From positions 62,001 through 126,000 of the forward strand of contig JAJEEE010000047.1 of the NCBI GenBank assembly GCA_022821145.1: a stretch of DNA of 64,000 nt. The letters are read 5' to 3'. The notes below the pieces were generated by a model. It made no database searches, was not told where the DNA came from, and saw only the letters and a program-made list of their open reading frames with translations. The stretch is from Acidobacteriota bacterium. GTDB lineage: Bacteria > Acidobacteriota > Terriglobia > 20CM-2-55-15. Below, in pieces: positions 435 to 60,506 of this stretch. Position 1 is the first letter of the stretch. Every line of letters begins with the position of its first letter. The translations under genes were made by a program, and so were the position numbers.

Positions 435-914
435 TCAGTCGTCGAGTTTCTTCAATTCCTCGAACAGCACGGAATTCTTGGGCTGGTCGCCGATCTCGTG
501 CACGTCGACATAGCGGATCACGCCCTGCTTGTCGACGATGAAGATCGCGCGCTCGGAAAATCCTTCCCGGCGCAGGACATTGTATTGAAGGGCCACGTGT
601 CCGTGCGGAAAGAAATCGCTCAACAGCGGATAGGACAGTCCGCCGAGCGATTCCGCCCACGCCTTGTTGCTGAAGATCGAATCGATGCTGATGCCCATGA
701 CCTGGGCATCGTACCGGTCGAACTCGGAGAGATCCTCCTCGTACGCCGGCATCTGCAGGGTTCAGACCGGAGTGAACGCAACGGGGTAGAAGGCGATGAC
801 GACGTTCTTCTTCCCCTTGAAGCTGGACAGCGTGACTTCCGTGTCCAGGTGCGAGTTGAGCGTGAAGTCGGGCGCCGCGTCACCCACCTTGAGCTCGTTT
901 GTCGGGTTCGGCAT
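435..914 (-). CDS. Peroxiredoxin (AhpE/Bcp-like) with in-frame TGA as peroxidatic selenocysteine
   Basis: Read from ATG at 914 (preceded by GAGGAGA), the frame gives 159 residues, with one TGA at 762-764 as codon 51 and a real stop at 435. The text around it is FYPVAFTPV-TGA-TLQMPAYE, so the TGA sits exactly on the peroxidatic residue of the peroxiredoxin motif PxxxTxxC. Conservation continues on both sides: VGDAAPDFTL at the N-terminus, then GISIDSIFSNKAW, the active-site Arg in FSERAIFIVD, and length typical of a single-domain thiol peroxidase. Sec-containing peroxiredoxins are an established bacterial family that reduces H2O2 or organic peroxides. A hairpin follows the TGA. The alternative, a 105-residue fragment starting at the Met after the TGA, would lack the catalytic residue. 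Confidence 0.88.
726..738 (-). promoter_or_regulatory. Candidate bacterial SECIS hairpin for the peroxiredoxin
   Basis: In the mRNA, GGAG-GAUCU-CUCC forms a four-pair stem (five with a G-U pair) and a five-base loop beginning with G, starting 24 bases after the UGA. An outer CCGG/CCGG pairing may enclose it. Position and a G at the loop start fit the loose bacterial SECIS model (apical loop about 16-37 bases downstream). The stem is short, so this is weaker than the DUF3179 element. Confidence 0.5.
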
Positions 915-1098
915 GAAATCTCCTCTCTGGTCAGTTGCGCCGCCCGGCCCGTGGTGACCGGCGACCGGATAGGATAAGCAATCTCCGGCTCAAAATCACC
1001 CCCTGCGCGGATTTCGGTGACGCACGGTTGCGGCACCCCAATGCCTTGTCGTACAGGCGAGAGCTGGACCCAAGCTTTTCGAAGCGGCCGCGTACCGG

Positions 1099-52755: not shown

Positions 52756-54456
52756 TCAGTCCAGGGAGAACGTCCACACCGCCGAGCCGCCTTCGCCGCC
52801 CCGGCCCGCCATGACCGAGACGTATTGGCGGCCGTCGAGCGCGTAGGTGACGGGCTGCCCCGGGCCGGGGGCCGTGGCCGCTTCCCAGAGCGTCTCGCCC
52901 GTCTCGGCGTCCAGCGCCAGGAACCGGCCGTCGGCCTTGCCGACGAAGAGCAGGCCGCCGCCGGTCGAAAGCGTGCCCCCGTGAGAGCCGTCGCCGGCGA
53001 TGCGCCACCGTTCTTCCTGGGCCACGGGATCCCACGCGACCAGGAACCCGCCCCGGTTGGGCATCCCCGGGTTCGGAGGCCGGACGAACCCCTCGGGCGC
53101 CCCGCCACGGCCGATCAATCCCGTGTTCGAGCGTCCGAACTGGTACTCGTACGCCGTGTTGACGGCGAAGTAGTTGTTGCCGTTCTGACCGGGAATGTAG
53201 ACCAGGCCCGTCGCCGGGTTCCACGACATGCCCTGCCAGTTGTGCGCGCCGTAAGGGCTGGGCCACAGCCACGCGGGACCGGTCCGGCTGTAACGCGCGT
53301 TCGCGGCTTCGATGGGACGGCCCGTTTCCGGATCGACGCCCTCCGCCCAGTTGACTTCCGCGAACGCCTCGGCCGATATGAACGCGCCCGTCACGCGATC
53401 GATGACGTAGAAGAAGCCGTTCTTCGGCGCCTGCATCAGCACTTTCCGTTGGCGGCCTTCGATCGTCAGCTCCGCCAGGATCATCGGTTGCACGGCGGTG
53501 TAGTCCCATTCGTCGCCGGGCGTCGTCTGGTAGTACCAGACGAGCTCGCCGTCGTCGGGCCGCACGGCCAGGATCGACGACAGGTAGAGGTTGTCGCCGC
53601 CGCCGGGGCTCCGGAGCGTCTGCGTCCAGGGGCCCCCGTTGCCGGTGCCGACGTAGAGCAGGTCCTCCTCGGGGTCGTAGGCGAACGCGTCCCACACCGT
53701 TCCGCCGCCGCCGAGCTCCCACCATTCGCCCGTCCATGTCTCGGCCGCGCGCGCCAGCGCGTCGCTCTCGAAACCGTCGGCGGGGTTGCCGGGCACGGTA
53801 TGGACGCGCCACGCCTGCTCGCCGGTTTCCGCGTCATAGGCGGTGAAATACCCGCGGACGCCGAATTCCGCCCCGCCGTTGCCGATGACGACCTTGCCCT
53901 TCACGACGCGCGGCGCGCCGGTGATGCTGTATTCGTCGTCCCTGGGCGTCGTCTGGACCGACCAGACGACGCGTCAATTTTCGGCGTCGAGCGCCACCAG
54001 GCGCCCGTCGAGGAGACCGACGTATACCTTGCCCGCGTACAGGGCCGCGCCCCGGTTGACCGGACCGCAGCACAGGTGCGGCCCGCCCGGGCCCCGGGGG
54101 ATGTCCGCGTCCCATCGCCAAAGCTCCTCGCCCGTGCGCGCATCCAGCGCGAACACGCTGTTCCAGGTTGTCGTCCCATACATGACCCCGTCGGCGATGA
54201 GCGGCGTCGCCTCCAGCGTTCCGGTCGAATCGGTATCGTAGGACCAGGCCGGCGCCAGCCCGCCGACGTTGTCCGTGTCGATCAGATCGAGCGGGCTGTG
54301 TCGCGTTTCCGCGTAGTCGCGGCCGTTGGACAGCCACTCCTCCGCCGGGACCTCCCGCAAACGCGTGTCGTCGACGGCTTGGCGGGCCAGGGCGTGGCCA
54401 CCCCAACCCAGCAGGGCCATCGCCAACAAGCCGGCGCGAAAGTTGCAGGTGCGCAT
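52756..54456 (-). CDS. PQQ-dependent dehydrogenase with an in-frame TGA (codon 161)
   Basis: 566 codons from ATG 54456 to the stop at 52756, interrupted once by TGA at 53974-53976. Frame and similarity to the intact paralogue at 45590-47413 continue on both sides: [21 protein letters not shown] versus LVALNRETG-LVDWAVQTTP, so TGA replaces the Gly of the blade motif TG. Signal peptide ([15 protein letters not shown]), vicinal cysteines [12 protein letters not shown] and all propeller repeats are present; no haem domain. A perfect 11-bp hairpin begins 2 bases after the TGA. Explanations: nonsense mutation (GGA to TGA), assembly error, or recoding. Gly is not a usual Sec position, so I do not call it a selenoprotein. 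Confidence 0.8.
53946..53972 (-). promoter_or_regulatory. Perfect 11-bp hairpin directly after the in-frame TGA of the PQQ dehydrogenase
   Basis: In the mRNA GCGUCGUCUGG pairs fully with CCAGACGACGC around a UCGGU loop, starting at the second base after UGA. The loop begins at base 13, slightly closer than the usual bacterial SECIS (about 16-37), and its first two bases lack the expected G. So it is either an unusual SECIS or a coincidence of conserved codons. Confidence 0.4.
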
Positions 54457-58935: not shown

Positions 58936-60063
58936 CTATTCCTCGAAGACCTCCGGGTTCGGGAACGTCAGCGAGAAGCCGTACCAGCGCGTGAAAACCT
59001 GGTTCGGGCGTTCCATCGGGACGGCTCCGCCGTCGGCGTCGATCAGGCGTCCGGCCACGATCGACTGCCCGTTTTCGAGCCGGACCTGACGCCCTTCGAT
59101 CGCCGCGCCCGCGGCATCGACGTAGAGCGCCGCCGGGACCGACGTGCCCGGGTCGCGGTAGACCAGCAGGTTCCGCCCGCCGACGGTGTCGACGAAAGCG
59201 CCCCGTCGGCGAATCCCTTCGAACGGGTAGAAGCGCCGCAATCCGTCTGCGTCCCATACGCCCAGGCCCATCTCCATCCGTTCCCGCCGGGTGTCCTCTT
59301 CGCCCAGCGTCTCGACGAACATATCCCCCATCCGGGCGTCGGGATCCGGAAGCCCGCGCGCTCCGGCCGGTCCGCCGCCACCGCCGCCGCTATCGGGAGG
59401 CGGCGGCTCGCCCAGGCCGCCCCGCCCGAACGACGTCGGCGTGAACCCCGGGCCGCTGTTCGCGAAGGGACGCCCCGAAATGGCGATTCGCATTCCGGGG
59501 TCCAACTCGAGCGCCTGCGCGACGGTCATCTGCCGCAATGCACCGGATATCTCCAGCGAACGTCCGGCGTGTTCGCCGTACATGGCTTCGCCGGTGATGT
59601 GGTTCCACAGTGTCAGCGTCCTGCGGTCCTGCATGACGAAGAGGCCGTCGTACAGGCCGGCGTTGGTGAAATGCAGCCACCGCCCGTCCAGCTCGGGGAT
59701 CAGACTGACCCCCGTGTTGCAGACCACTCAGAACGTCGCCATCCAGTGCTCGCCGTTGGACGACGTGCCCTCGGCGATGTGGTGGTACGCCATCTGGTCC
59801 ATCAGCAGGGCGAGGCGGCCGTCGGCGGTATCCGTGACCAGGACCCAGTGGTCCGCGTTGACCTTCTCGTTCCCGATGGCCTCGGCGAGAGGCTCGGTCC
59901 CCGTCGGATAGAACGTGTGGAACCAGTCGTGACCGGCGTTGCTGAACCGGTTGAAATCGAACGCGCCGGCGCCCGTCGCCTGAGCGGCGAGCGTCGCCGG
60001 CATCGCCAACAACACCGCAAGGGCGGCCGTTGGGCCGGGGCCGGAAGGAAGCACGTTGCGCAT
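58936..60063 (-). CDS. Secreted DUF3179 protein with in-frame TGA in the CxxC motif (candidate selenoprotein)
   Basis: 375 codons from ATG 60063 (GGAAGGAAGC upstream) to the stop at 58936, with a single TGA at 59728-59730 as codon 112. Signal peptide MRNVLPSGPGPTAALAVLLA, cleaved near LAAQATG. Text around the TGA: EHWMATF-TGA-VVCNTGVSLI, aligning with the DUF3179 core 'VTYCPLCGTG.VFDR..DG..L.F...G...'. So TGA replaces the first Cys of CxxC, giving UxxC. Conservation continues on both sides (LDGRWLHFTNAGLYDGLFVM; RRTLTLWNHITGEAMYG). An 8-bp stem with a GUC loop follows. DUF3179 function is unknown. A nonsense mutation precisely at the Cys is the rival view. Confidence 0.86.
59695..59713 (-). 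promoter_or_regulatory. Candidate bacterial SECIS for the DUF3179 protein
   Basis: mRNA GGGGGUCA-GUC-UGAUCCCC: eight pairs (one G-U) closing a GUC triloop, or AGUCU if the last pair opens, which resembles the AGGUCU loop of the fdhF SECIS. The stem starts 15 bases and the loop 23 bases after the UGA, inside the known 16-37 window. It lies within the coding region, as bacterial SECIS elements do. Confidence 0.75.
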
Positions 60064-60074
60064 GGGGATCGTCG

Positions 60075-60506
60075 TTATCGAGCCTGTTCGGTGGGATCGG
60101 AGCCGTCCAGCGGCGCTCCAGTCCCCGACGACCCGGCGAACAGCCGCCGTCCGTCGGGAAACGTCACGTCGCGTCCGTTGGCCCGGTTCGACCCGTCCAG
60201 GGCGCGGTAGCCCTCGACCAGGACTTCGGTGCCCGGAACGACCGAGTCCCGCGTCCACCCGCGCCGAACCAGGGCGCCGGGAGGCCCCGCCTCGATCATC
60301 CAACTTTCGACGGTGCCGTCCTCCAACGTGACGTCGAGATGCATCCAGGCGTGCGGGTTGATCCATTCCATCCGGGTGATCTGGCCGCGCAGGCGCACCG
60401 GCTGCGTCGAGTCGAACTCCGCCGCGAACGCATGATGGGCGACGGCCGGTTCGACGCCAAACGGCGCCAGCGCCGCTACCGATATGAGTACAAAAGCGGT
60501 CCGCAT
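60075..60506 (-). CDS. Secreted DUF6152 family protein
   Basis: 143 residues from ATG 60506. Signal peptide (RTAFVLISVAALAPFGVEPA) then AHHAFAAEFDSTQPVRLRGQ, ITRMEWINPHAWMHLDVTL, and GPPGALVRRGWTRDSVVPGT: the full DUF6152 layout with the HH start and the 'W.NPH.W..' motif. It lies between the VOC-fusion gene (5 bp upstream) and the DUF3179 gene (11 bp downstream), all minus strand, so the three are one operon. Its function is unknown. Confidence 0.87.
   Translation of the reverse strand: MRTAFVLISVAALAPFGVEPAVAHHAFAAEFDSTQPVRLRGQITRMEWINPHAWMHLDVTLEDGTVESWMIEAGPPGALVRRGWTRDSVVPGTEVLVEGYRALDGSNRANGRDVTFPDGRRLFAGSSGTGAPLDGSDPTEQAR

Follow-up and report, generated by a model that had tools for sequence, protein, structure and literature searches.

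A predicted exported DUF3179 protein with a probable selenocysteine in its UxxC motif, encoded in an Acidobacteriota genome

The window, by which we mean the whole 64,000-nucleotide stretch of DNA analysed here, carries on its minus strand a DUF3179 gene with a single in-frame TGA, which almost certainly specifies selenocysteine (Sec, U):

60063-58936, minus strand: DUF3179 gene, predicted to encode a selenoprotein of 375 residues followed by a TAG stop, with one putative Sec codon
59730-59728, minus strand: in-frame TGA, read as U112, the first position of UxxC; TGA in 11 relatives, Cys in one (L057)
59719-59721, minus strand: TGC codon of the partner Cys (C115), unchanged in all 39 DUF3179 proteins aligned
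59695-59713, minus strand: candidate bacterial SECIS hairpin, GGGGGUCA-GUC-UGAUCCCC, 8 bp, starting 14 nt past the TGA
59464-59880, minus strand: first DUF3179 repeat, residues 62-200, containing UxxC and the invariant His94; predicted to be beta-rich
60075-60506, minus strand: DUF6152 gene, directly upstream and ending 11 bp short of the DUF3179 start codon; its own start (60506) is approximate, taken from the ORF translation

The DUF3179 gene runs from an ATG at 60063-60061 to a TAG at 58938-58936 and, when TGA is read as U, contains exactly one such codon, in the context ...GEHWMATF-U-VVCNTGVSL.... The N-terminus of the protein resembles a signal peptide (MRNVLPSGPGPTAALAVLLAMPATLAAQA), and the Pfam DUF3179 profile (PF11376) matches at 56.3 bits against a gathering cut-off of 27; no NCBIfam model matches the protein, and its relatives give chance-level NCBIfam matches only. 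A preliminary description of this DNA had reported one in-frame TGA at 59728-59730 in an otherwise intact 375-codon protein, falling where DUF3179 proteins have the first Cys of CxxC. Both observations are confirmed on the minus strand, the second by the Pfam match and by the invariance of the U/C column at residue 112. Standard gene callers truncate selenoprotein genes at TGA, and the program-listed ORF in this frame (58936-59727) begins only downstream of that codon; a standard gene call would thus drop both the signal-peptide-like N-terminus and the UxxC motif.

The DUF6152 gene is a probable operon partner of the DUF3179 gene. A glyoxalase-domain gene also lies upstream in the same direction, and a PutA-like proline dehydrogenase/aldehyde dehydrogenase gene lies downstream in convergent orientation. 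These neighbours point to no single pathway, and no conserved gene neighbourhood is seen among the class relatives L113-L115. At L113 (4333-9140, G188:C32) a Sec-DUF3179 gene follows genes for a multi-haem cytochrome c and a weakly DUF7133-like protein, all in the same direction; these probably form one operon.

Thirteen in-frame TGAs lie between two coding-like open stretches in the window, and only those of the DUF3179 gene and of a peroxiredoxin gene look like Sec sites. The peroxiredoxin (AhpC/TSA, PF00578, 122.8 bits; 435-989, minus strand) has its TGA at 764-762, which places U at the peroxidatic Cys (FYPVAFTPVUT); it is likely a second selenoprotein, belonging to a known family and resembling known Sec-peroxiredoxins. 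The TGA at 53974-53976 (minus strand), in a dehydrogenase-like frame, corresponds to Gly in a same-genus genome (L116) and is probably a nonsense change or an assembly error rather than a Sec codon.

Eleven relatives have TGA at the same codon as the DUF3179 gene: two Gammaproteobacteria MAGs (L054, L055), a Gemmatimonadota MAG (L056), four genomes of the same class (L059-L062) and relatives in at least four further genomes of the phylum (L119-L122). An Aureispira MAG (L057) has TGC, giving Cys in LTFCCVCNSG; it is the Cys homologue within the subfamily, and many others occur in other DUF3179 clades. TGA/TGC exchange of this kind had been put forward in the preliminary description as a means of checking the Sec reading, and the residue other than Cys or Sec that it named as an argument against that reading is absent from the column, position 112 always being C or U. 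Both U/C112 and C115 are invariant in DUF3179 alignments of 33 and 39 rows, as are A85, H94, G136, D146, W153 and G163. The subfamily is 14-22% identical to the remaining DUF3179 clades in the alignment. Beyond the phylum, the closest relative recovered has 46% identity, and the plasmids and viral contigs searched contained no relatives. Two copies depart from the intact form, L062 (G042) having no intact in-frame N-terminus upstream of UPACNTG and L123 (G740) an additional TAG; they are possibly decaying.

The hairpin is the one recognized in the preliminary description as an in-frame 8-bp stem with a GUC loop after the TGA. Bacterial SECIS elements are defined by a loop of 3-9 nt with G in its first two positions, a stem of 4-16 bp, a distance of 16-37 nt from the UGA and a minimum free energy (MFE) of at most -7.5 kcal/mol (PMC13188914); the hairpin lies within all of these bounds, with a 3-nt loop beginning with G, 8 bp, a distance of 22 nt and -11.4 kcal/mol (z -2.84). 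Synonymous recoding alone yields the complete 8/8 stem in the same register in 1.8% of draws, so the hairpin of a single sequence is only suggestive; it is covariation across the relatives that marks it as more than chance. Twelve subfamily sequences align gap-free over 47 nt from the TGA, with stem columns 18-25 facing 29-36 (the covariation test was also made with eight sequences). Across the twelve, the stem is paired in 94.8% of cells, and five of the eight pairs show double-sided compensatory changes, such as C-G to U-A and G-C to A-U. The covariation score of 0.475 compares with a shuffle mean of 0.282, was reached in none of 500 shuffles, and drops to 0.04-0.24 in slid registers. Sec and Cys loci were not told apart by generic MFE testing under fixed criteria (14/28 against 17/42). 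They are distinguished by the synonymous-codon and covariation tests, the mean z in the synonymous-codon control being -0.98 for Sec genes (n=30) and -0.10 for Cys genes (n=43).

The source assembly is 99% complete and encodes the full set of selA, selB, selC and selD, for which the preliminary description had suggested a search: tRNA-Sec (selC) at C21:23952 (75 bits), SelA at C61:128929 (440 bits), SelB at C87:17212 (380 bits) and SelD at C85:100588 (360 bits). Across the class, DUF3179 occurs in 132 of 399 genomes. Sec and Cys forms were tabulated by hand against SelB among the matches listed, with SelB scored as present at E < 1e-60, a threshold that separates it from EF-Tu-like matches; the motif sequence was read directly at some loci, and in other genomes the evidence is the TGA count within the match. 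Among the matches listed, SelB accompanies the TGA form in 77 of 81 genomes of the class, against 28 of 46 with Cys forms only (Fisher p 2e-6). In family f9, again among the matches listed, all 11 genomes with the Sec form and none of the 15 with the Cys form have SelB (p 1.3e-7); this family has a clade with both forms, YUTLCHTG or YCTLCHTG. The four TGA-form genomes with no clear SelB match (G023, G076, G314, G382) are MAGs of 73-96% completeness. Loci L063-L087 make up this [U/C]TLCHTG clade of DUF3179, whose form matches SelB without exception in f9; most of its Sec forms carry a hairpin CACACC-GGUCU-GGUGUG downstream of the TGA.

The region is syntenic in a same-genus genome (G001) at 83-89% identity, with ~0.9 kb of the DUF3179 gene missing; the remnant (L116 5510-5655, G001:C297) comprises N-terminal codons ~11-44 and the last 20 codons, in different frames. 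The genus can therefore do without the gene, whose absence from G001 is most likely due to deletion. The other members of the host's taxonomic family among the genomes compared, G002-G010, have no DUF3179. Relatives of the subfamily are found in distant phyla, a distribution that would be compatible with horizontal transfer.

A sequencing or assembly error, or the stop codon of a pseudogene, might also account for the TGA, and the window offers a precedent in the codon at 53976-53974 (minus strand), where the sister species has Gly. For the DUF3179 gene we consider this extremely improbable, and for the subfamily it is already refuted, given that independent assemblies of 11 relatives have TGA at exactly the same codon, that codon bias extends to both sides of it, that the hairpin covaries, and that the genome encodes the Sec machinery. 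For the re-sequencing that the preliminary description had named, the conservation of the codon in these relatives serves as a substitute. The standing of the family is a separate question. The first DUF3179 selenoprotein was reportedly described by Zhang and Gladyshev in 2007 from an Olavius algarvensis symbiont. The selenoprotein lists in two reviews include the DUF3179 domain-containing protein (pfam11376, UxxC/T) as a prokaryotic family, and both cite the 2007 Olavius algarvensis symbiont study for it (PMC9312934, PMC13188914). Published examples of the family are MBW1804167.1 and MDJ0986319.1. The proposal in the preliminary description that the gene represents a candidate new selenoprotein family is thus unsupported. 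The low identity to other DUF3179 clades and the distance to the best relative outside the phylum could be taken to favour a genuinely new family, but the Pfam threshold is passed and the same UxxC is already on both lists (PMC9312934, PMC13188914), and we regard a new family as very unlikely. We conclude that the gene almost certainly encodes Sec and adds one more well-supported member to a known family. A divergent subfamily of predicted exported proteins, the frequency of Sec across the class and the gene loss by deletion in the sister species may be new.

AlphaFold2, run on 33 aligned rows, confidently predicts two repeats (pLDDT 85.7), each with the order strand-strand-helix-strand-strand-strand, and places UxxC in a beta-turn between strands 106-112 and 117-122. 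A model of the first repeat alone reaches a pLDDT of 93.7, and nearly all of its top Foldseek matches in the PDB are Rieske-fold proteins, led by the NirD-like 4aiv (probability 1.00, E 0.02) and 3c0d (0.99) and followed by Rieske ferredoxins and oxygenases; no match has E <= 0.001, and TM-scores are 0.4-0.6. The fold search with the full two-repeat model gave no usable match, and a sequence search of the PDB found no relative. A thioredoxin-like fold was considered and rejected. Thioredoxins carry their redox motif at the N-terminus of a helix; here UxxC sits in a strand-strand turn in the AlphaFold2 models, so the arrangement is not that of thioredoxins, and no thioredoxin is among the listed matches.

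These models give rise to the main rival of a redox site, in which Sec is inserted as proposed and UxxC together with His binds a metal or iron-sulfur centre on a Rieske-derived fold, rather than forming a free selenol/thiol pair. The Rieske matches of the first-repeat model, the invariance of His94, U/C112 and C115, and, in relative L113, the co-directional multi-haem cytochrome c gene that lies two genes upstream all lend themselves to this reading; the redox role, for its part, is read from the motif alone, whose beta-turn placement is unlike that in thioredoxins, and the PDB offers no relative of the protein by sequence. Rieske [2Fe-2S] proteins are characterized by CxH and CxxH ligand boxes. 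These are absent from the DUF3179 alignment, where only His94 and U112xxC115 are conserved and the first Cys of box I has no conserved counterpart, and comparison with Rieske proteins by hhalign gives a probability of 1.1%. With no structural match passing E 0.001, the ligand pattern absent and the profile comparison failing, we prefer the redox site and consider a metal centre unlikely. It is also rather doubtful that DUF3179 proteins are a tandem Rieske-like fold whose metal ligands were replaced by Sec-x-x-Cys/His, yielding an exported selenoenzyme or a metal-selenolate site; to our knowledge, Sec on a Rieske-like scaffold has not been described. Covalent attachment of haem through C/U-x-x-C-H is suggested by the [C/U]TLCH of one DUF3179 clade and by an Idiomarina paper that tabulates a DUF3179 protein among cytochromes, but the motif of the protein in the window is UVVCN, which lacks a His behind the Cys, and CxxCG or CxxCN is found in most clades, making haem attachment exceedingly improbable.

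Our analysis thus favours a DUF3179 selenoprotein of the known family (probability about 0.93), in which UGA112 is decoded as Sec and the product is an exported protein with a Sec-x-x-Cys redox pair. We propose that SelB, with Sec-tRNA, would decode the UGA, directed by the hairpin that lies 15-33 nt past this codon. Once mature, the protein would be exported; the first of its two repeats would hold Sec-x-x-Cys in a beta-hairpin, with a conserved His near it in sequence. The pair would most likely act as a fast selenol/thiol redox centre in the periplasm or envelope, cycling between selenenylsulfide and reduced forms. We infer Sec insertion, export and redox chemistry from the genomic evidence, the redox role from UxxC, its exchange with Cys and the signal-peptide-like N-terminus; our literature search found no experiment showing Sec in any DUF3179 protein.

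So far, little has been published on DUF3179 selenoproteins beyond table entries. The comparative evidence for Sec is here unusually clean, combining a covarying SECIS with a distribution of Sec and Cys forms that follows SelB. The Sec form is common in the class (81 genomes with TGA among the matches listed), and the paired Sec and Cys homologues make the function, substrate and fold easy to test. Gene calling that stopped at the TGA removed both the predicted signal peptide and the predicted active site from the listed ORF.

Compared by family and motif description, the protein shares with the listed DUF3179 selenoproteins (PF11376, UxxC/T) its Pfam family, a single Sec at the first CxxC position and the existence of Cys homologues, and differs in its UVVCN[TS]G or UPACNTG motif and much altered second repeat. 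A paralogue in the same genome (L001, G000:C31:58330-59238) has CxxC at the same site (YCTLCGTV); it contains Cys rather than Sec, is ~18% identical and matches the Pfam profile over its full length at 229.6 bits. Thioredoxin-like UxxC selenoproteins share the motif, whereas here it lies in a beta-turn of a predicted duplicated beta-rich domain. Rieske-fold proteins such as NirD (4aiv) and the Rieske ferredoxins give a weak Foldseek match to one repeat, while DUF3179 has neither their CxH/CxxH ligand set nor profile similarity to them.
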